This document shows positions 17,060 to 27,535 of a stretch of 64,000 bases of DNA, in pieces. This DNA is from Cryomorpha ignava (GTDB taxonomy: Bacteria > Bacteroidota > Bacteroidia > Flavobacteriales_D > Cryomorphaceae), in assembly GCF_010686655.1 (NCBI RefSeq), contig NZ_JAAGVY010000018.1, positions 1 to 64,000 on the forward strand. The letters are read 5' to 3'. How positions within the stretch are numbered: the first letter of the stretch is position 1; each line of letters starts with the position of its first letter. Under the pieces are notes generated by a model. That model ran no database searches. It saw only the letters and a program-made list of their open reading frames with translations, and was not told where the DNA came from. Position numbers and translations under genes: made by a program.

Positions 17060-17111
17060 ACCAAAAACCAATCACCAAACACCAATCACCAAACACCAAA
17101 CACCAAAAACT
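17060..17111. repeat. Short tandem CACCAAAC/CACCAATC array
   Basis: Several 7- to 14-bp units of the type CACCAAACACCAATC repeat in tandem and run up to the stop codon of the next gene. The units are too short, and have no spacers, for this to be a CRISPR array. Confidence 0.7.
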
Positions 17112-17538
17112 AATTATAAATCCTCAATAAATTCGCATTTGGATTGTACTGTGTATTAAAGTATTGAAGGGGGCGTGTAGCTTCGCCAGAAACCGGAGTT
17201 CCGGTTATTATCTCAAATGTAGAGTGGCAGCATTCTTCATCTTCGGCTATGGTTCCATCTAAAACATTTACCTTGCAGCGTTTTTCTACCTGATAGGTAC
17301 AGTGCCTGTCAAAAGCAGAAAATTCATCAATAGATGATCTGTACACAATAATTCCCTGCGATCCGCCATTTACATATACCCAGCCGCCGGGATTTGCCAA
17401 AGCACTGAATCCGGGAAGGTTAATGTTAATTGTTACGTCTGTGGAAACCCTGGGAACTTGCAATTCATCGCTGTTGTCCTTTTTGCAACCAAAGGCGACC
17501 GTTAATAAAATAAGAGAAAAATAAATCGTACGTTTCAC
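17110..17538 (-). CDS. Rieske-fold-like lipoprotein with incomplete cluster ligands
   Basis: 142 residues; residues 1-18 form a lipoprotein signal (SLILLTVAFGC, Cys18 as lipid anchor). The C-terminal half follows the Rieske [2Fe-2S] pattern: DRHCTYQ (residues 77-83), then ECCHSTFEI (102-110), then a G-x-P-x-x-G-x-A-x-x-PL-x-x-Y motif (TGTPVSGEATRPLQYF), typical of Rieske domains. However, the first-loop His is replaced by Tyr82, and the second-loop Cys expected three before His105 is Glu102, so a normal cluster is unlikely. Extra Cys88, Cys103 and Cys104 may form disulfides or bind another metal. It stands alone between repeats and the next gene. Function unknown. Confidence 0.72.
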   Translation of the reverse strand: MKRTIYFSLILLTVAFGCKKDNSDELQVPRVSTDVTININLPGFSALANPGGWVYVNGGSQGIIVYRSSIDEFSAFDRHCTYQVEKRCKVNVLDGTIAEDEECCHSTFEIITGTPVSGEATRPLQYFNTQYNPNANLLRIYN

Positions 17539-17554: not shown

Positions 17555-17869
17555 ATGATAAAACGCAAAAATACATTCATTATTTCACTCTTTATCTTTT
17601 TTACTGTTTTTGCTGCTTCAGCACATGCACAAAAGCCGGAAAAGCAAAAATCGGTAGAGAAACAACGTAAGGAATTTCTTCAATTGCAGGATGACCGCGA
17701 TGCAGAGCTTAGTAAAAAAATGGGTGAGGATCGTGAAAAGCATGTAAAGATACAGACCAAAGAAACACAGAAACGAATGAAGAAAAACCGCAAAAAGATG
17801 CGCAGACGCAAGGAAGGAAAGCATGAAAAATCATTTTTTGAAAGATTGTTTACAAAAAAACCACATTAA
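17555..17869 (+). CDS. Small secreted highly basic protein
   Basis: 104 residues: a signal peptide ending ASAHAQ followed by a very Lys/Arg/Glu-rich, probably helical tail (RMKKNRKKMRRRKEGKHEK) ending in FFERLFTKKPH. No family is recognised. It is divergent from the Rieske-like lipoprotein, with start codons 16 bp apart. The charge suggests binding to LPS, nucleic acid or peptidoglycan in the periplasm, but that is a guess from composition only. Confidence 0.65.
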   Translation: MIKRKNTFIISLFIFFTVFAASAHAQKPEKQKSVEKQRKEFLQLQDDRDAELSKKMGEDREKHVKIQTKETQKRMKKNRKKMRRRKEGKHEKSFFERLFTKKPH

Positions 17870-18148: not shown

Positions 18149-21100
18149 ATGTTGCGAAATCTCTACCTACTGGGTTTAGTATTCCTGTTATCTACTTCTT
18201 CTTTACTCGCACAGGTTGGTGCGGGAACACTAAAAGGGAAGCTTACCGATTCTGAAACAGGGGAACCCCTACCTTTTGTTAACATCGTTTTACAGAGCGG
18301 CGACCAGCAGGTTGCCGGTGGGTCAACCGATTTTGATGGGAACTACACCATCAAACCGATCCCGCCGGGATCGTATAATGTTCTAATCTCTTACGTAGGT
18401 TACAACGCTAAGAGAATTGAAGGAGTGATCATTAATAACTCCAAAATTACCTTTTTGGACATCGATATGGATTCTGGTATTAAACTTACCGAATTTGAAG
18501 TAGTGGAATATTCTGTTCCGCTTATTGATAAAGATGGAGGTTCTACCGGGGGTACTGTTACCCGCGAAGATATTGCGCGTATGCCCGGTCGGTCTGCTAC
18601 TTCTATCGCTGCAACCGTTGGTGGAGTGCAGGAAACCAGCGGTGGAGATATTTCAATTCGCGGAGCCAGAACAGACAACACCTATTATTATATAGATGGA
18701 ATTAAGGTAAGGGGCTCAAGCAACTTGCCTAAAGCCGCCATTGAAGAGGTATCTGTTTTAACAGGAGGTATTCCGGCCAACTACGGTGACGCCACCGGTG
18801 GTATTATTGCGATTACTACGCGTGGTGCCAGCAGCCAATACTTTGGTAGTATCGATGTACTAACATCGGGTTTTGCAAATGAAGATGGAGACGGAATTGG
18901 TCTCGACCGTTTTTCACAAACGCAGGTAGAAGGTGTTATTTCAGGCCCGCTTATTTGGAAAAAAGACGCCGAAGGAAACAAAGACAAACCTCTTATCGGA
19001 TTTTTTGCATCAGGGAACTACAGGGACTTTTTGGATGGTCGACCGACCATTGGTAACTATAGAATTAAACAATCGGTAAAAGATCAATTGGTTAACAATC
19101 CGCTGGATTTTAGTTTAATTAATTTCGATGTTAACCCTTCCGCAGACGTTTATATTAATGATCAGGGTGAGTTAGTTAACGCAACGGTAGTAAGTCCTTC
19201 TGTTCAGGGAATTTCAAATTCTGAATTTCTAAATTCTTCAGATTGGGAAGAAGTACCTGCGAGACAAAATGATAGACAACAAGGAGTCTCGGCAACATTA
19301 AAATTTGATGTGGCTACAGCGCCGAATTTTGATGTGTCTTTCGGAGGTACATACGACTGGGAAAAAGATAATTTATACAACTATGAAAACAGCCTGCTGA
19401 ACGCACAAAACAATGGTGAATCCACAGATCAAACCTGGAGAGCGTTTGGTAGATTTACACAGCGGTTTAACTCTGATGCCGTTCAAGGCGAAGAAGAAGG
19501 CCTTATAAAGAATGCGTTTTACAGCATAATGGTAGATTATAGCCGCAGAGAGCGTGTACGCCAGGATCCAATTCACAAAGACAAGCTATTTAATTATGGA
19601 TATGTTGGCAGTTTTGAAACACAGACTGCACCTAACTATCGTTTTAGACAGGATACCTCAGCATTTGGATTTTATCAGGAAGGTTTGCGTGAGATTGCTA
19701 CTACTTTTACACCTAGTGAGGTGAACAGCGATTTGGCTTCATATACATCTGCACTTTACAATTATTACAACGAGTTGGGATTTGTGCCTAGAACACTGAA
19801 CGATATTCAGGCCGCAGGTGGTTTGATAAATGGACAGGCTGCTCCTAGCGTTTATGGACTTTACAATGCAATAGGTCGGCCGTATAACAATTATGCATTC
19901 TTTAATCAAAACCAGTTTCGAATTACAGGTTCAGGTTCTGCCGATATAGGCGACCATGCAATTACTCTTGGCTTTGAATTTGAACAATATACTGAGCGTA
20001 ATTTTGGTGCCAACCCTATTGAGTTGTGGATCCAAGCTCGCGGTCTTGCCAATCGCCACCTTCAGGAATTTGATAAATCATCTGTTGCAAACCAGTTTGA
20101 TGTTAACGGGACTACTTTCTTTACTTATGACCGCATCAATGATCTTGCAAGCCAAACTACTTTTGATAGAAATCTGCGGATTTCCCTTGGTATGGATCCC
20201 AATGGAAGTGAACTTATAAACGTCGATGGTCTTGATCCCGATGTTTTTGAGTTAGATATGTTCAGCGCCGATGAGCTTTTGCGTCAGGGTGGAACTTCTT
20301 CGCTGGTAAATTATTACGGGTATGACTACAAAGGCAATGTGCTGACGGGAAGCCGCCCAACAATTGTAGATTTCTTTAATGAAAGAGACGAAAACGGGGT
20401 GCTTACAAGACCAATTGCTGCATTTGAGCCGGTTTATATTGCCGGATACATTATGGACAAGTTTGCTTTTGATGACATTATCTTTAACGTTGGGGTTCGC
20501 ATCGACCGCTTTGACGCAAACCAGTCTGTACTAAAGGATAAATATGTAATTGGTGATGCACGCACTGCAGGCGAAATTAGAAATGCCGATCCGGAATCAA
20601 ATCTCTTCTTTGGAGAATTGCCTAATAATGTTGGCGACGACTGGGTGGTGTATGTAAATGACCTACAAAATCCTACCGCAATAAATGGGTATCGCGACGA
20701 CGAAACCTGGTATAATGCACAGGGTGTTGTTATTTCTGATCCAAGAGCCATTAAAACAGCGTCTGGAATAGCACCTTTACTTCGCGATCCTAGTGCAGTT
20801 GGTGAAAATTTAACGAGCGATGCTTTCGAGGATTACAAGCCGCAAATTAATGTTATGCCACGGGTTTCTTTCTCTTTCCCGATTTCTGATGAAGCTGTTT
20901 TCTTTGCACATTACGATATCCTTACGCAAAGACCAACAGGCCAAAATATTACCAATCCGGCAGATTATCTGTTTATTCAGAACTTGGGAAATCGCGCGGT
21001 TAATAATCCAAATCTTCGACCTACCAAAACAATCGATTATGAACTGGGTTTCCAGCAAGTGCTTTCCAGGAGCTCTTCGCTCAAAATATCAGCTTTTTAT

Positions 21101-21913
21101 CGCGAAACCCGCGATGAAATTCAGGCGCGAAGATTGCTCGAAGCTTTCCCGGTTACTTATACCTCTTTCGACAATTTTGACTTTGGTACTACAAAAGGAC
21201 TTACACTTACGTATGATTTGCGTAGAACAGGAAACATCACTTTGCGTTTGGCTTATACGTTGCAGTTTGCTTCAGCCACTGGTTCAAGCGCTGGATCATC
21301 GCTTAACCTTGTAAACTCAGGCGAGCCTAACCTTCGGGTTATCTTCCCTACCGATCGTGATCAGCGCCACGTTTTTGTTGGAACATTTGATTACCGTTAT
21401 GGATCTGGTAAAGATTATAACGGACCCACCATCGGCGGAAGCCAAATTTTTGCAAATGCCGGCCTAAATTTAGTTGGAAACTTGGGTACAGGTACACCGT
21501 ATTCACAGCAGCAGCGCGCTACCGGTGAGGCATTTATTAATACCGCAGGTTCGCCACAGCTTGAAGGTACTGTAAATGGTTCCAGACTTCCCACTCAATT
21601 TAGAATCAACGCTCAGATTGATAAGTCATTTCAATTGAAATTTGGCAAAGAAGGCGAAGAGCAAAAACAAGCTTCACTAAATGTTTACTTACTAATTAAC
21701 AATTTACTCAACACCCAAAACATTTTTGGTGTATATAGATATACTGGTAATGCTGATGATGATGGATATCTTGCCTCTCCTCAGTTTGCTCCTGGTATTG
21801 AGTCGCAAATAGACCCGCAGTCGTTTAGAGATATGTATGCGCTAAAGGTTGCTACACCATTTAATTATTCTTCTCCACGCACCATTCAGCTTGGGGTAAG
21901 ATTAGACTTTTAA
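18149..21913 (+). CDS. TonB-dependent outer-membrane receptor with carboxypeptidase-regulatory-like N-domain
   Basis: About 1254 residues from the ATG at 18149, which directly precedes the signal peptide (LRNLYLLGLVFLLSTSSLLAQ); the frame extends upstream to 18068 without a plausible signal. After the signal comes a CarboxypepD_reg-like beta-sandwich (GTLKGKLTDSETGEPLPFVNI ... YNVLISYVGY). The plug domain follows (DIARMPGRSATSIAA, ISIRGARTDNTYYYIDG, IPANYGDATGGIIAITTRG) and then a long 22-strand barrel ending RTIQLGVRLDF, with the expected terminal Phe. It imports a substrate using TonB energy; the substrate is unknown. There is no SusD gene next door; a giant secreted protein and a PorV-like barrel follow instead, in the same direction. 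Confidence 0.93.
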   Translation: MLRNLYLLGLVFLLSTSSLLAQVGAGTLKGKLTDSETGEPLPFVNIVLQSGDQQVAGGSTDFDGNYTIKPIPPGSYNVLISYVGYNAKRIEGVIINNSKITFLDIDMDSGIKLTEFEVVEYSVPLIDKDGGSTGGTVTREDIARMPGRSATSIAATVGGVQETSGGDISIRGARTDNTYYYIDGIKVRGSSNLPKAAIEEVSVLTGGIPANYGDATGGIIAITTRGASSQYFGSIDVLTSGFANEDGDGIGLDRFSQTQVEGVISGPLIWKKDAEGNKDKPLIGFFASGNYRDFLDGRPTIGNYRIKQSVKDQLVNNPLDFSLINFDVNPSADVYINDQGELVNATVVSPSVQGISNSEFLNSSDWEEVPARQNDRQQGVSATLKFDVATAPNFDVSFGGTYDWEKDNLYNYENSLLNAQNNGESTDQTWRAFGRFTQRFNSDAVQGEEEGLIKNAFYSIMVDYSRRERVRQDPIHKDKLFNYGYVGSFETQTAPNYRFRQDTSAFGFYQEGLREIATTFTPSEVNSDLASYTSALYNYYNELGFVPRTLNDIQAAGGLINGQAAPSVYGLYNAIGRPYNNYAFFNQNQFRITGSGSADIGDHAITLGFEFEQYTERNFGANPIELWIQARGLANRHLQEFDKSSVANQFDVNGTTFFTYDRINDLASQTTFDRNLRISLGMDPNGSELINVDGLDPDVFELDMFSADELLRQGGTSSLVNYYGYDYKGNVLTGSRPTIVDFFNERDENGVLTRPIAAFEPVYIAGYIMDKFAFDDIIFNVGVRIDRFDANQSVLKDKYVIGDARTAGEIRNADPESNLFFGELPNNVGDDWVVYVNDLQNPTAINGYRDDETWYNAQGVVISDPRAIKTASGIAPLLRDPSAVGENLTSDAFEDYKPQINVMPRVSFSFPISDEAVFFAHYDILTQRPTGQNITNPADYLFIQNLGNRAVNNPNLRPTKTIDYELGFQQVLSRSSSLKISAFYRETRDEIQARRLLEAFPVTYTSFDNFDFGTTKGLTLTYDLRRTGNITLRLAYTLQFASATGSSAGSSLNLVNSGEPNLRVIFPTDRDQRHVFVGTFDYRYGSGKDYNGPTIGGSQIFANAGLNLVGNLGTGTPYSQQQRATGEAFINTAGSPQLEGTVNGSRLPTQFRINAQIDKSFQLKFGKEGEEQKQASLNVYLLINNLLNTQNIFGVYRYTGNADDDGYLASPQFAPGIESQIDPQSFRDMYALKVATPFNYSSPRTIQLGVRLDF

Positions 21914-21942
21914 TATTATTGAAATTCAATTATAAATAACTT

Positions 21943-24900
21943 ATGAGAGTGTTTAATTACAGTTTATTAATCGCAGCTCTGCTCACAGTTAGCGTAAACT
22001 CCACTCAGGCACGAGAATATATGGGTCCGAAATCGAACTCAAATAAGGGTGTAAAAGCCAAAGCTGCCGGATGTTCACCCGCTCAAACACTTACCGAGTT
22101 TTTCGTAAATAACGTACGAACATCTGCGGAAACAGGCGGTAATACCTGGTATGATCGTGGAAATGGCCAGCCTTATTATGAAGTTCCGGCAAACGAAGGC
22201 AACCACGCTATTTTTGCAGGTGCCTTGTGGATGGGTGGTGAAGACCCTGCAGGAAATCTAAAACTTGCGGCAATTCGCTTTCGCCAAAACGGAAACGATT
22301 TCTGGCCAGGCCCACTTTCTGTTGACGGTACGGCTTCTATTGACGAAGCTACTTGTCAGTTATGGGATCGTTTTTTCCTCATGTCAAGGCAGATGGTCGA
22401 AACCCATAGATATTATTTTACACTACTAAACTCTGGTGTAGATCCAACAACAGATCCGCTATTTGAAAATGGATACCAGATACCGACAGAAATTTTGGAA
22501 TGGCCTTCGCAGGGTGATGCCAACCTGGGTCAAAGCCCGACTATAGCTCCATTTGGAGATTTGCGCGATCCGGAAACCGGAGAGATTGTTACTACCCCCG
22601 GTTTGTATGAACCACTTTTGGGAGATTACCCGCTTTACGATTTAGATCAGGAAATTGATTGTAGAACCAGACTGGTAACAGATCCTGTTCCACTTTTTGG
22701 TGACTTTACCATGTATTGGGTATTTAACGATAAAGGAAACGTACACACAGAATCGAATGGTGATCCGATCGGAATGGAAATTCAGGCGCAGATGTTTGGG
22801 TTTACTACCAATGATGAGATCAATAATATGACATTCGTTAACTATGTATTAATTAACCGTGGTACCTTAACACTTGAAGATACTTATTTTGCCCAATGGG
22901 TAGATACTGATCTTGGAAATCCGCAAGACGACTTTATTGGTTGTGATGTAATGAGAGGTCTCGGTTATTCTTACAATGGAGATAACGATGATGAAGGATC
23001 GTCGGTTGGTCCCGGTTATGGTACACAGCCTCCTGCTATTGGAGTAGATTTCTTTGAAGGACCGTATCAAGATCCCGATGGAATAAACAATGCTTATGGT
23101 ATAGGCGAAGGGCAAGCTTTAAATGGTTTAGGTTATAGAAATCCGCTTGATTCTTTATTGCCAAATGGAATTGATACAATTATTGACAATGAGCGCTTTG
23201 GAATGCGTAGATTCCTTTTTCACAACAATTCATCAGGTCCGGTTCCTACTCAGGATCCGCAAAATGCTGTAGAGTATTACAATATGATGCGCGGAATTTG
23301 GAAAAATGGTACGCCAATGACTTTTGGTGGTACAGGTTATAACCCTACATGCCAGGCTTGTCTTACCGCAGATTTCATGTTTCCCGGCGATACAGACCCA
23401 CTTCACTGGGGTACTGAAGGAGTAGATCCCAACTATCCTGAAACGGGTGGATGGACTGAAGAGAATGAAGGAAATGAGGCCGGTGACAGACGTTTTGTGC
23501 AATCGGCCGGGCCATTTACGCTCGACCCGGGTGAGTTTAACAATATTACTGTTGGGGTAGTTTACGCTCGCGCCTCTAATGGTGGTCCGTTTGCGTCAGT
23601 TACCGAACTACTTCAGGCAGATGACAAAGCACAGTCTCTGTTTGACAACTGTTTTAGATTGCTCGATGGGCCTGATGCTCCTGATCTTACAGGTCAGGAA
23701 CTAGATAGAGAACTGATTCTTTATCTCAGAAATACGAGTCCTTTGAGTAATAATAACCAGGAAAAATATACAGAACTAGATCCAACTATACCGCCGCAAA
23801 ACACAGAAGGTGAAGCGAATGACCAGTTCTATAGATTTCAGGGATATGAGGTTTATCAATTGAAAAATTCCGGAGTTTCTGTATCAGATATAGAAGACCA
23901 GAGTTTGGCTCGCCGAATCTTTCAATCAGATATACGTGATTTTAAAAACGGTGGTGAAGCTATTGGGCAAATCATTAATTACGAATTACAGCAAGACATA
24001 GGATTGCCGGTTCCAAGAGAGATGGTGAACGGTGCCAATGAAGGGATTAGACATTCATATCAAGTTACAACAGATCAGTTTGCCTCTGGAGATACGCGCT
24101 TGATCAATTTCAAGAAATATTATTTTCTTGCGATTGCGTATGGATATAACGAGTATGAACCTTATAATCCTGATCCAAACATACTTTCAGGTCAGGCGAG
24201 ACCATATTTACGTGGTAGATCAGGTGCTGTTGGCGATATTCAGGCTATCACCCTTATTCCTCACAAGCCTGTACCAGAACAGTTTGGTACAGTGATTAAC
24301 GCTGAATATGGTGATGGAGTTCAAATTACACGCTTAGAGGGAACAGGGAATGGTAATAACAACCTTGTACTTACAAAAGAGACGGTAGATGCCATAATGG
24401 ATGAGGCTCCTTTTAAAGCTGATCAACTTACATATGAGCCGGGCGAAGGCCCTATAAATGTCCGAGTAATTGATCCGTTAAATGTTAAACCGGCGAACTT
24501 TACACTTCGATTTTACAACGAGAAAGACCCGAGTGGAGAAGGTTATATAGGCGATTTTAATACTTCCAGCTGGTATATGGTAGATGCAAATAATCCTGGA
24601 GATACCATTTTTAGTGAAACGACTATTCAAACCCAGAGCGAGCAAATTGTACCCGAGTATGGTATATCTGTATCTGTTGGTCAATATGAATACGATATTG
24701 TAAACAGAGAATTAAGTGCTAACGAAATTAAGCGGTATCCGCTTCTACTTGGAAATAGCATTGAGTTTACAAGCGGCCCCGATGGCTGGCTGGCAGGCGT
24801 TGCTGATCAGGAAGGCGCTAATCCGCTTAATTGGATTAGATCAGGCTCTAACGTTGTTACTCCTGAAACTAATTCAGGTGACCCGTGCTTCCTTCTGCCT

Positions 24901-26340
24901 GATGGTACAACAGATCCATCTGTATTTAATGACTATAGAGGGATTGATAACGCTCAAATATTTGAAGATGTTGTGGGTGGTACATTTGCTCCGGCGCGTT
25001 TGGTTGCCGGGTATGACTGCGGTATTGCACCATTCTCGAACGAAGCTTCGGCAGCTGTAATTAAAGATGCGAAAGATCTCAGCTTAACAAAATCAGTTGA
25101 TATTTTCATTACTCAAGATAAGAGTAGATGGAGTCGTGTACCGGTTTTCGAAATGCAATTCCAAAAGGAATTTGCACAGTTAGAGAAGAAGAAAATGCAG
25201 CTGCGTGGTGCTTTATCGGTAGATAAAAACGGTAGAAATCAACTTGAGCCCGGAGCCAATATTGATGAATGTACATACAATGGTGCGCAAGTGCTTACAG
25301 AAGAAGAAGTATTTGGATGGACCGAAGCCAAGCGCATGGCATTTCTTGCACTTGTAAGTGGTCAATACACCGAAATTCAAAGTGCCGATCAATTGGTTGG
25401 CTTGTCATTTGGAATGGGATACTTTCCGGGGTATGCTATTTCTCCCGAAAGCGGTGAACGCCTGAATATGGGATTTGGTGAAAACTCATACCTGTCTGGT
25501 GACAACGGAAGAGACATGTTGTGGAACCCGACTTCTAGAGTTACTACACAGCTCAATGATCAGTTTATTGTTGGTGGCGAACACTACATATATACTTTCC
25601 GCAACAAGAAATATGACGAGAGTTTGAAAACTAGTCCTGATCCACGTCAGGCGATGCCTGCTTATGATGGAGGTCAAACAGTTTACGATGTAATGACTGA
25701 GTTTGAGAAACCTACGTTCTCTAATGAAATTGACCGTTTGTATCGAGCATTTGCATGGGTAGGTTTCCCGCTTCTTGCCAACGGCTTTGAATTTTTATCG
25801 CCCGAAGAAGGCCTTGTGCCCGGTAATGTTAAAGTTTCGGCTCATGTGGCGCAGCCTTACTCGCCGTATGCTACCGTTAGAGACGAGCTAGGAGATGCTT
25901 CAATGCCTCAGCCGCTTCCAACTACGAATTACAATCTTAGCTCCAATTTCTGGTATCCTGAATACGCGTTCTCAACAGAGGGCAGTGAAACGCTTAGAAA
26001 CCAAACAGAAGTAGGTACAACAGCGCTTGATCTGATTGATATAGTTCCAAACCCATACTACGCTTACTCGGCTTATGAGCAAAGCAGGGTTGATAATAGA
26101 GTGAAATTTGTAAACCTTCCTCCTGAATGTAAAATTTCAATCTTTACCATAAATGGAACGCTTATCAATGTATTTGAAAAGGATAATCCGAATACTTATT
26201 TGGAGTGGAATTTACAAAATGAGAGCTTTATTCCAATTAGTGGAGGTATGTACTTAATACATGTACAATCACCGGGTCTTGGCGAAAGAGTACTTAAATT
26301 CTTCGCTGCTACGCGACCTACCGACCTAAGAAACTTCTAA
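21943..26340 (+). CDS. Giant secreted surface protein, T9SS/FlgD-like C-terminus
   Basis: 1465 residues with a signal peptide (FNYSLLIAALLTVSVNSTQA). The N-terminal region, with AIFAGALWMGGEDPAGNLK and NDFWPGPL, matches a long secreted protein type often found next to TonB receptors in Bacteroidota; the function of that type is not known to me. The C-terminal ~90 residues read DIVPNPYYAYSAYE ... ISIFTINGTLINVF ... SGGMYLIHVQSPG, the layout of a T9SS type A sorting or FlgD-Ig-like domain. It sits 29 bp after the TonB receptor and 31 bp before the PorV-like gene, so one operon is likely. Export by T9SS and cell-surface exposure are inferred. Confidence 0.82.
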   Translation: MRVFNYSLLIAALLTVSVNSTQAREYMGPKSNSNKGVKAKAAGCSPAQTLTEFFVNNVRTSAETGGNTWYDRGNGQPYYEVPANEGNHAIFAGALWMGGEDPAGNLKLAAIRFRQNGNDFWPGPLSVDGTASIDEATCQLWDRFFLMSRQMVETHRYYFTLLNSGVDPTTDPLFENGYQIPTEILEWPSQGDANLGQSPTIAPFGDLRDPETGEIVTTPGLYEPLLGDYPLYDLDQEIDCRTRLVTDPVPLFGDFTMYWVFNDKGNVHTESNGDPIGMEIQAQMFGFTTNDEINNMTFVNYVLINRGTLTLEDTYFAQWVDTDLGNPQDDFIGCDVMRGLGYSYNGDNDDEGSSVGPGYGTQPPAIGVDFFEGPYQDPDGINNAYGIGEGQALNGLGYRNPLDSLLPNGIDTIIDNERFGMRRFLFHNNSSGPVPTQDPQNAVEYYNMMRGIWKNGTPMTFGGTGYNPTCQACLTADFMFPGDTDPLHWGTEGVDPNYPETGGWTEENEGNEAGDRRFVQSAGPFTLDPGEFNNITVGVVYARASNGGPFASVTELLQADDKAQSLFDNCFRLLDGPDAPDLTGQELDRELILYLRNTSPLSNNNQEKYTELDPTIPPQNTEGEANDQFYRFQGYEVYQLKNSGVSVSDIEDQSLARRIFQSDIRDFKNGGEAIGQIINYELQQDIGLPVPREMVNGANEGIRHSYQVTTDQFASGDTRLINFKKYYFLAIAYGYNEYEPYNPDPNILSGQARPYLRGRSGAVGDIQAITLIPHKPVPEQFGTVINAEYGDGVQITRLEGTGNGNNNLVLTKETVDAIMDEAPFKADQLTYEPGEGPINVRVIDPLNVKPANFTLRFYNEKDPSGEGYIGDFNTSSWYMVDANNPGDTIFSETTIQTQSEQIVPEYGISVSVGQYEYDIVNRELSANEIKRYPLLLGNSIEFTSGPDGWLAGVADQEGANPLNWIRSGSNVVTPETNSGDPCFLLPDGTTDPSVFNDYRGIDNAQIFEDVVGGTFAPARLVAGYDCGIAPFSNEASAAVIKDAKDLSLTKSVDIFITQDKSRWSRVPVFEMQFQKEFAQLEKKKMQLRGALSVDKNGRNQLEPGANIDECTYNGAQVLTEEEVFGWTEAKRMAFLALVSGQYTEIQSADQLVGLSFGMGYFPGYAISPESGERLNMGFGENSYLSGDNGRDMLWNPTSRVTTQLNDQFIVGGEHYIYTFRNKKYDESLKTSPDPRQAMPAYDGGQTVYDVMTEFEKPTFSNEIDRLYRAFAWVGFPLLANGFEFLSPEEGLVPGNVKVSAHVAQPYSPYATVRDELGDASMPQPLPTTNYNLSSNFWYPEYAFSTEGSETLRNQTEVGTTALDLIDIVPNPYYAYSAYEQSRVDNRVKFVNLPPECKISIFTINGTLINVFEKDNPNTYLEWNLQNESFIPISGGMYLIHVQSPGLGERVLKFFAATRPTDLRNF

Positions 26341-26371
26341 AAATACAACTACAGCGATTAACTGTCGAAAT

Positions 26372-27439
26372 ATGAAATACATTTCTAGAAATATAGTAAA
26401 AGCCTTTGTCGTTGCGACTTCATTGCTTACAGTTTCAACTGCCTTTGCAGGCAATCCCGATCGTGCAGGATCTGCCGGCGGAATGCAGCTTCTAATTAAC
26501 CCTTGGGCGCGGAGCAATGGACTGGCTGGAGCCAATATGGCCGATGGTACACCCGTTGAATCTATGTTCCTGAATGTTGGGGGTCTCGCTTTTGTTGAAA
26601 AAACGGAAGTGGCTTTTACCAATGTAAATTATCTGTCAGGTTCAGATGTGTCAATCAATTCAGTTGCTCTGGCACAGCGAATTGGCGAAACAGGTGCAAT
26701 TGGAGTATCGGTTAGTGCATACAACTTTGGTGATATCCGAAGAACGACGACAAACTCGCCCGATGGTGATGGCACCACTTTTAATGTGAATATGGTGAAT
26801 ATAGGCCTATCTTACTCCAAGGCTTTTTCCAATAGTATCTATGGTGGGCTTACATTAAAAGTGCTTAATGAAAGCGTTGCCGACCTTAAATCTACCGGTA
26901 TTGCAATAGACGCAGGTATTAAATATATAACCGGAGACCGCGATCAGGTGAAATTTGGAATTACCCTTAAAAACGTTGGTCCTCCAATGTCGTTTAGCGG
27001 AGATGGACTTAGTTTTGATACTCAGTCACCTACACAAGAATATCCGCTTACGGCAGAGCTGAGAAGTGAAAATTACGAGCTTCCGTCATTGGTAGCTATC
27101 GGATTTAGCTATGACTTTTTACTTGCCGAAGATCACAATCTTACAGCGCACGGTACCTTTATAGCCAATTCTTTTACAGAAGATAATTTTCTGATTGGTG
27201 CTGCCTATGACTTTAAGAAAATGTTGTTTCTAAGAGCTGGATACCACTACGAGCCAAACATTACAAGTGACGAAGACAGAAGATTTGTGTATACTGGTTT
27301 TGCTGCCGGTGCTGGTTTGCAATTTGCCTTTGGAGCTAATAAAACACGTATAGCACTTGATTATTCTTACCGTGCTTCTCAGCCGTTTAACGGAACCCAT
27401 GCAATTGGAGCAAGAATTCATGTCGGTAGTTCTGAATAA
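26372..27439 (+). CDS. PorV/PorQ family outer-membrane barrel protein
   Basis: 355 residues with a signal peptide ending STAFA. The mature start (GSAGGMQLLINPWARSNGLAGANMADGTPVESMFLNVGGLAF, seen in parts) is the classic PorV/PorQ/FadL-like N-terminus, in which a hatch region is followed by 14 barrel strands. The end, NGTHAIGARIHVGSSE, is typical of the short PorV relatives. PorV shuttles T9SS cargo to the attachment complex. This copy is linked to a TonB receptor and a giant secreted protein, so it may serve that partner rather than being the general PorV. Third gene of the apparent operon. Confidence 0.87.
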   Translation: MKYISRNIVKAFVVATSLLTVSTAFAGNPDRAGSAGGMQLLINPWARSNGLAGANMADGTPVESMFLNVGGLAFVEKTEVAFTNVNYLSGSDVSINSVALAQRIGETGAIGVSVSAYNFGDIRRTTTNSPDGDGTTFNVNMVNIGLSYSKAFSNSIYGGLTLKVLNESVADLKSTGIAIDAGIKYITGDRDQVKFGITLKNVGPPMSFSGDGLSFDTQSPTQEYPLTAELRSENYELPSLVAIGFSYDFLLAEDHNLTAHGTFIANSFTEDNFLIGAAYDFKKMLFLRAGYHYEPNITSDEDRRFVYTGFAAGAGLQFAFGANKTRIALDYSYRASQPFNGTHAIGARIHVGSSE

Positions 27440-27454
27440 GATTTAAAATAGTTC

Positions 27455-27462
27455 TATCTTTG
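27455..27462 (+). promoter_or_regulatory. Putative -7 box (TATCTTTG) ahead of greA
   Basis: Exact TAnnTTTG match. The predicted transcription start (about 27467-27470) falls directly before the hairpin at 27472-27502, so the greA leader would begin with a terminator-like structure. Confidence 0.5.
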
Positions 27463-27471
27463 TATTAAATT

Positions 27472-27502
27472 GAGAAAGCCCTTCGTGGGTTTTCTCTTTT
27501 TT
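27472..27502 (+). terminator. Terminator-like hairpin between the PorV-like gene and greA
   Basis: A fully paired 10-bp stem (27472-27481 with 27487-27496, one G-T pair), loop TTCGT, then six T residues. It can serve as the terminator of the upstream operon (stop at 27439). If the TATCTTTG box at 27455 is used, it would also act as a leader attenuator of greA. Confidence 0.8.
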
Positions 27503-27535
27503 GCATGTATATACCTTTCCTTAATTCATTTTATT

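Follow-up and report, generated by a model that had tools for sequence, protein, structure and literature searches.

A conserved three-gene operon of Cryomorpha ignava joins a TonB-dependent receptor to a large protein with a type IX secretion-type C-terminal domain and a PorV-family β-barrel

What would serve a TonB-dependent receptor (TBDR) as its partner at the cell surface when its operon holds no SusD-like gene? SusC/SusD (RagA/RagB) and their kin consist of a TBDR and a surface lipoprotein partner from the same operon. The question is raised by a locus of Cryomorpha ignava, lying in a stretch of 64,000 nucleotides (the window: positions 1 to 64,000 of the forward strand of contig NZ_JAAGVY010000018.1, assembly GCF_010686655.1), in which three open reading frames on the + strand encode a TBDR, a 1465-aa protein, and a β-barrel. 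With gaps of 29 and 31 bp they form one operon, as an earlier annotation made from the DNA without database searches (the original prediction) had held in citing gaps of about 30 bp. This triad is a real, conserved three-gene surface module that is undescribed in the literature searched; i.e., no paper on an operon of a TBDR, a protein with a C-terminal domain (CTD) of the type IX secretion system (T9SS), and a PorV-family barrel was found among open PMC titles and the beginnings of abstracts, a search that did not cover subscription papers, preprints, or supplements. Its parts are of known kinds; the novelty lies in their combination and perhaps in the class of cargo. At a probability of roughly 0.6, we favor the reading that the 1465-aa protein is a T9SS cargo that has a dedicated PorV-type carrier and that partners the TBDR, with the whole working in a SusC/SusD-like manner.

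The TBDR gene (18149..21913, +) encodes 1254 aa when read from the ATG of the original prediction, with a longer frame possible from 18068. A signal peptide was recognized by eye, CarboxypepD_reg and Plug (PF07715) both score above their Pfam cut-offs, and the plug match places the product among predicted TBDRs. The SusC/RagA model was absent from its NCBIfam matches up to an expectation value (E) of 1, and neither a SusC/RagA nor a SusD family was returned by Pfam or NCBIfam for any of the three proteins at that threshold, in agreement with the earlier description of a receptor lacking SusD. The 1465-aa product of the second gene (21943..26340, +), hereafter the large protein, likewise begins with a signal peptide as judged by eye; no lipobox was seen by eye, which counts against a SusD-type lipoprotein, and Pfam gave no family up to E 1. 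The third gene (26372..27439, +) encodes the 355-aa PorV/PorQ-family barrel, a protein without Cys that is proposed to be the dedicated carrier and anchor.

A connection to T9SS is suggested by the last 100 residues of the large protein (26038..26337, +), an immunoglobulin (Ig)-like, PorZ/PorU-like candidate sorting domain with a conserved Lys and a C-terminal extension ending in Phe. In NCBIfam searches, the whole protein reaches 13.6 bits on the type A CTD model TIGR04183 (cut-off 23) and 12.5 bits on the PorZ model, and pieces containing the CTD reach 16.3 and 19.6 bits on TIGR04183; all scores being below 23 bits, the protein is not placed with type A cargo (TIGR04183/PF18962), and the type B model TIGR04131 is not among the matches up to E 1. 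When 14 orthologous C-termini were searched up to E 1, all 14 matched both PorZ (best E 5.5e-11) and TIGR04183 (best E 3.3e-8), with 13 matching PorU, and a profile of the CTD alignment retrieved PorU and PorZ only, weakly (0.48 and 0.58), from the PDB up to E 1. An AlphaFold model of residues 1111-1465, with a mean predicted local distance difference test score (pLDDT) of 53.9, contains a domain with seven strands in which model residues 281-340 score 80-87. The best PDB matches of this domain are PorZ (Foldseek E 2.9e-6; Z 10.6 over 90 residues, root-mean-square deviation [rmsd] 2.4) and PorU (Z 9.2). Lower, at Z ~7.5 and amid other Ig-like folds with comparable values, come CTDs in complex with SprA-PorV, and the CTDs of mirolase, RemZ, NucA, and RemA are also listed. 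The FlgD/T9SS-like C-terminus claimed in the original prediction is thus right, being weak in the single sequence and clear with alignment and model, and it matches T9SS domains by both fold and profile.

Within the CTD, a near-invariant Lys corresponds to residue 1452 (26296-26298) and is kept in 55 of the 57 C-termini from the window and its relatives (one exception has Arg and the other is cut by a contig end), as well as in 18/19 C-termini from other lineages of the phylum. Passages of one structural paper report that the near-invariant Lys of type A CTDs contacts PorV (PMC10994853). Past the Lys, the C-terminal extension ends in Phe or Tyr in 45/57 and 16/19 of these same sets; in the window protein it spans 26317-26337, and an aromatic end is seen in other triad CTDs as well. 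Outer-membrane barrels end in a C-terminal aromatic residue, which the extension recalls. Judged by its signal peptide (by eye), the modeled Ig-like fold of its CTD, and the Lys, the large protein would count as T9SS cargo in the broad sense.

Against the same models, canonical CTDs encoded in this genome behave differently. At least 150 matches from this 5.0-Mb genome lie over the type A cut-off (150 of 257 candidates scored), and six of these, which are shorter than the orthologous C-terminal pieces, were taken as a control. They reach 49-60 bits on TIGR04183, with PorZ touched by one (16 bits) and PorU by two, and the C-terminal extension is lacking in six canonical CTDs. For three other-lineage triad CTDs, the PorZ model gives 51, 38, and 21 bits and TIGR04183 gives 31.9, 25.2, and 13. 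The CTD protein PorU of C. ignava scores 27.7 bits on the latter model. Pfam searches of eight CTD proteins from those lineages gave no family over its cut-off.

The barrel belongs to the PorV/PorQ family (NF033709; 150 bits, cut-off 90) and is neither PorV (NF033710, 61 bits versus a cut-off of 250), PorQ (NF033711, 74 versus 220), nor PorV2 (NF052325, 36 versus 325); on the PorP/SprF model it scores 18.8 bits against a cut-off of 90.55. PorV (487 bits), PorQ (323), and PorV2 (477) are encoded elsewhere in the genome, where one barrel among those scanned exceeds the PorV equivalog cut-off. In a tree of 79 rows (75 different, with four triad rows being second copies of the same gene), triad barrels form one group of 57 rows (support 94/90), inside which those of Bacteroidia triads form one group of 26 (100/100). 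PorV proper and the PorV of C. ignava constitute a separate group (99/98), and the PorQ and PorV2 of C. ignava are separate too. The sole non-triad row in the triad-barrel group (L181) is encoded immediately 3' of a frame that the receptor profile matches, and no gene for a CTD protein separates the two.

Gene order further ties such CTDs to such barrels. In two multi-copy genomes from other lineages, 15/17 CTD matches (8/9 and 7/8) have a same-strand PorV-family gene immediately downstream, at a distance of no more than ~215 bp. A barrel frame was found in 26 of 30 CTD loci examined with ~1.5 kb on each side, and a fragment in one more at a contig end. Two subgroups of triad barrels coexist in each of two genomes, and the tails of the neighboring CTDs follow the subgroup: in the larger subgroup, each of the 17 rows from outside the Bacteroidia pairs with a CTD bearing the C-terminal extension, and in all 13 rows of the other subgroup with a CTD neighbor (10 distinct loci), the CTDs stop ~5 residues past the Lys position. 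This tracking fits cognate recognition between CTD and barrel. Three genomes from other lineages encode 16, 16, and 17 PorV-family genes, as against 2-4 in five genomes of the class; C. ignava has 6 at the same threshold. Besides the triad barrel, PorV, PorQ, and PorV2, two PorV-family-like barrels of C. ignava score slightly below the family cut-off of 90 (L109 9551-10618, 82.9 bits; L110 9355-10170, 71.2 bits). In four regions of relatives, a duplicated large protein flanks the barrel (large protein, barrel, large protein), an arrangement suggesting that a pair of cargos may share a single barrel.

Homologues of the large protein, which is single copy in C. ignava, were detected in 58 of 60 genomes searched (its own, the family, and the order), including all 51 of good quality. 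Forty of the 58 genomes contributed one region each, and receptor, large protein, and barrel occur together, on the same strand and in the same order, in 30 of the 40. Six of these 30 have one gene incomplete, four being cut by a contig end and two having the receptor or the large protein split in two frames. In two other regions the contig starts inside the large protein, with the barrel next. A separate set of 20 named contigs, overlapping the 40 regions in at least two genomes, carries all three genes on 11, including metagenome-assembled genomes labeled Fluviicola, Cytophagaceae, and Bacteroidales; three contigs are cut by a contig end, one is without the barrel, and five hold the large protein alone, part of it, or a short relative. 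Among other lineages of the phylum, 20/20 larger regions from 18 genomes carry the triad with its gene order unchanged (in one, the receptor is cut by the contig end); these regions were hand-picked from strong CTD matches, most already known to have a barrel nearby, with the receptor not known beforehand. Co-occurrence of the three genes is not due to chance, and the loss of conservation in relatives that the original prediction had named as its refutation did not occur. Moreover, an HIT gene, used as the downstream marker, follows the triad in 28 of the 30 regions. Since the triad and its neighbors are kept across relatives, the locus is old and stable.

Across 247 genomes of wider sampling, the C-terminal profile matched 123 at 1e-10 or better. 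A near-full-profile match was found in only eight genomes (C. ignava itself, two of the order, and five of one other family of the class), with the remaining matches mainly in the CTD half of the profile, often in ~1100-aa proteins and several per genome. SprA is present in 190 of the 247 genomes, comprising all 123 with a profile match, and none of the 57 SprA-less genomes has a match (Fisher p 3e-21, with species not independent). This co-occurrence would be in keeping with SprA-dependent export of the large protein.

Outside its CTD, the large protein resembles little by sequence: neither the protein alone nor a profile of residues 44-1110 matched the PDB up to E 1, and in NCBIfam this part matches neither PorU nor PorZ. 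A model of residues 44-573 (22072..23661, +) forms a large β-sandwich, mostly at pLDDT 66-90 in blocks of ten and below 50 for residues 377-417. In VIA-align it superposes on the N-terminal β-sandwich found in glycoside phosphorylases, glucoamylases, and GH116 enzymes (Z 18.5, 255 residues aligned, rmsd 3.3), all 50 listed rows having Z >14, and Foldseek gave nothing below 1e-3 (best E 1.6e-3); the fold assignment is a lead, with the consistent set coming from VIA-align. In such enzymes this N-terminal domain is the noncatalytic one. The likeness is a hint of glycan binding, and a carbohydrate ligand for the large protein would be a reasonable guess from the model. Residues from ~770 to 1360 are mostly poorly modeled, and no fold is claimed there. 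Six ~600-aa relatives share the N-terminal part and end in ordinary-looking type A CTDs, apparently a natural CTD swap inside one protein family. Because these relatives bear such CTDs, a cell-surface location of the N-terminal part is independently indicated.

From these data, we propose that the products of the operon form an assembly at the cell surface. The barrel would be a dedicated PorV/PorQ-family carrier that docks on the SprA translocon, takes the large protein by its Ig-like CTD, and remains bound. With the bound CTD uncleaved, the barrel would become the anchor, as PorQ is for PorZ, PorV for PorU, and PorP/SprF for type B cargo. The anchored large protein, held beside the co-expressed TBDR, would then capture or hand over a ligand in SusD's place, the ligand being probably a glycan or a glycan-like compound. 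It is the conservation of the operon that points to a complex with the receptor. The suggestion in the original prediction that a relative of PorV presents the giant protein, or anchors it, near the receptor draws support from the gene pairing, the barrel tree, and the PorU-PorV, PorZ-PorQ, and SprB-SprF precedents; taken as a whole, that interpretation is partly supported.

Several known systems share features with this proposal. According to passages of a recent review, PorU and PorZ keep their CTDs uncleaved on PorV and PorQ, respectively, and cognate PorV-like barrels are suggested to shield the CTD from cleavage (PMC10202324). The triad would likewise hold an uncleaved Ig-like CTD on a PorV/PorQ-family barrel, and the PorU gene of C. 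ignava lies directly upstream of PorV, the same gene order as in the triad; what differs is that the triad barrel falls in a separate group and that a TBDR is encoded in the operon. A further pair, PorV2 directly followed by PorU2 (NF052325 and NF052324; 477 and 662 bits, NCBIfam), is found elsewhere in the genome (L108 8429-14583). There, too, a PorV-family barrel adjoins a CTD protein, and the PorU2 CTD scores like that of the triad (PorZ 26 bits; TIGR04183 20.6 bits, under the cut-off), although the barrel gene comes first, the cargo is a putative sortase, and the region examined contains no receptor-profile match. Since PorU adjoins PorV and PorV2 adjoins PorU2 in this genome, such pairs of a PorV-family barrel and a CTD protein form a recurrent arrangement.

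Most T9SS cargo is described in excerpts of the literature as type A, with one general PorV, or type B, with dedicated PorP/SprF (PMC10994853, PMC12635249, PMC12618676); passages of one review add a type C, seen in ChiA (PMC10202324). For type B cargo such as SprB, the carrier gene is reported in parts of three papers to lie commonly directly downstream, and the PorP/SprF-type carrier is proposed to stay bound as an anchor (PMC12618676, PMC9143113, PMC12635249). Adjacent cargo and carrier genes are thus common to type B systems (SprB-SprF, PG1035-PorP) and the triad, whereas the triad CTD is Ig-like and PorZ/PorU-like, and its carrier is of the PorV/PorQ family. With general type A cargo and PorV, the triad shares the Ig-like CTD fold and the conserved C-terminal Lys; in contrast, the window CTD scores below the type A cut-off and comes with a barrel of its own, though some triad relatives pass that cut-off. 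The triad thereby combines both patterns, in that a PorZ/PorU-like CTD is followed directly by a dedicated PorV-family carrier gene. As for SusC/SusD, the TBDR of the triad also has a surface partner from the same operon in the proposed role; however, that partner is not a SusD-like lipoprotein, bears a T9SS-type CTD, and is accompanied by its own barrel. Identity with the BamG/BamH pair was set aside by description, as a FadL-family barrel with a surface lipoprotein, the composition given in passages of PMC12611786 and PMC12578637, does not fit.

Three other explanations have to be weighed. The large protein could be ordinary type A cargo, exported by the general PorV and cleaved at its CTD by PorU, with the receptor and the barrel (e.g., a FadL-like channel) acting separately. 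Matches of TIGR04183 to all 14 C-termini and the passing scores of two of the three triad CTDs from other lineages speak for it, as do the ordinary-looking CTDs of the ~600-aa N-terminal relatives, a weak Toluene_X/FadL match of the barrel (Pfam, E 0.003), the stand-alone copies of the large protein, and the presence in this genome of PorV and PorU proper. We nonetheless consider it unlikely, given the 15/17 pairing of CTD and barrel genes, the nearest structures being PorZ and PorU, the separate barrel group, and a C-terminal extension absent from six canonical CTDs.

An assignment to envelope biogenesis rather than to nutrient uptake, in the manner of PorZ delivering A-LPS (anionic lipopolysaccharide) to PorU, or of BamG-BamH, would account for a CTD nearest to PorZ, for the single copy in C. 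ignava, and for the constant position of the locus among housekeeping genes across the order; a surface protein bound to a barrel also recalls BamG-BamH as portrayed in passages of PMC12578637. A TBDR within the operon argues otherwise, and two other-lineage genomes have nine and eight CTD matches, which suggests diversification of substrates. PorZ has propellers, from which the modeled N-terminal fold of the large protein would differ, and we regard a biogenesis role as distinctly improbable. Least credible is an adhesin or gliding module, in which barrel and large protein would be an SprF/SprB-like carrier and adhesin and the receptor merely co-regulated. The size of the protein and the order of cargo then carrier, as for type B cargo and SprF-like genes, agree with this, whereas the CTD is Ig-like and not type B, and the receptor is present in 20/20 regions of other lineages. 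The barrel also lacks Cys, whereas SprF, per passages of PMC12635249, has a C-terminal Cys-X-Cys that does not vary among close homologues and matters for movement.

The reading of a T9SS cargo with its own carrier and a TBDR partner has points weighing against it as well. One region of relatives has receptor and large protein with no barrel, and 7/40 were without a receptor or barrel seen (one of them cut by a contig end); as copies without receptor or barrel exist, not every copy of the large protein must stand in a triad. Six of the genomes contributing these seven regions were searched again and gave two matches each, and in one genome the other copy sits in a triad. The type A cut-off is exceeded by two of the three other-lineage triad CTDs, and the window CTD is no nearer to PorZ (18.1 bits) than to type A (19.6 bits); the border of this kind of CTD to type A is therefore gradual. 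The C-terminal model is of low mean confidence, with high values in the CTD part only, and support for the triad-barrel group is slightly below the starred level. Joint inheritance of the whole operon could by itself explain the pairing of tail and barrel subgroup, and with 16 PorV-family barrels per counted genome against eight and seven paired CTD matches, about half of the barrels are unaccounted for. Finally, SprA co-occurrence is confounded by phylogeny, and only 5/55 SprA-bearing genomes of the class outside the order have a match, all in one family; most of the sampled class thus does without the module.

If the triad does function as a T9SS-borne uptake system, CTDs of type A fold with dedicated PorV-family carriers would bridge the type A and type B classes, and this would help to explain the 16-17 PorV-family genes of the three other-lineage genomes. 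The surface component of a TonB-dependent uptake system, otherwise to our knowledge a lipoprotein, could then also be delivered by T9SS. The chances are about even that such proteins make up a further T9SS cargo class beside A and B, with PorZ/PorU-like Ig CTDs, PorV-family barrels of their own for export and permanent anchoring, and SusD-independent uptake together with TBDRs, old in the phylum, multiplied in several lineages outside the Bacteroidia, and retained at 1-2 copies in a few Bacteroidia lineages. The proposal would also put to the test the suggestion, made in passages of PMC10202324, that cognate PorV-like barrels protect the CTD from cleavage.

At its 3' side, the operon is closed before greA, since a strong intrinsic stem-loop terminator (27472..27496, +) follows the barrel gene; the fold of 27462-27508 has a dG of -17.9 kcal/mol (z -5.6), with 0/200 shuffles as low. 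On the 5' side, a gene upstream of the triad (17555..17869, +) encodes a 104-aa secreted protein (by eye), highly charged and rich in Lys, Arg, and Glu, for which Pfam gave no family at 1e-3; it may or may not be part of the triad operon. Adjoining the triad on the - strand, a 142-aa protein (17110-17538) likewise gave nothing in Pfam at 1e-3 and has a Cys/His pattern that we take to recall a Rieske-like lipoprotein. Upstream of the 30 triads of relatives, some of whose regions are too short to show these genes, a homologue of the 104-aa protein is present in 21, the 142-aa protein in 17, and S-adenosylhomocysteinase in 10.

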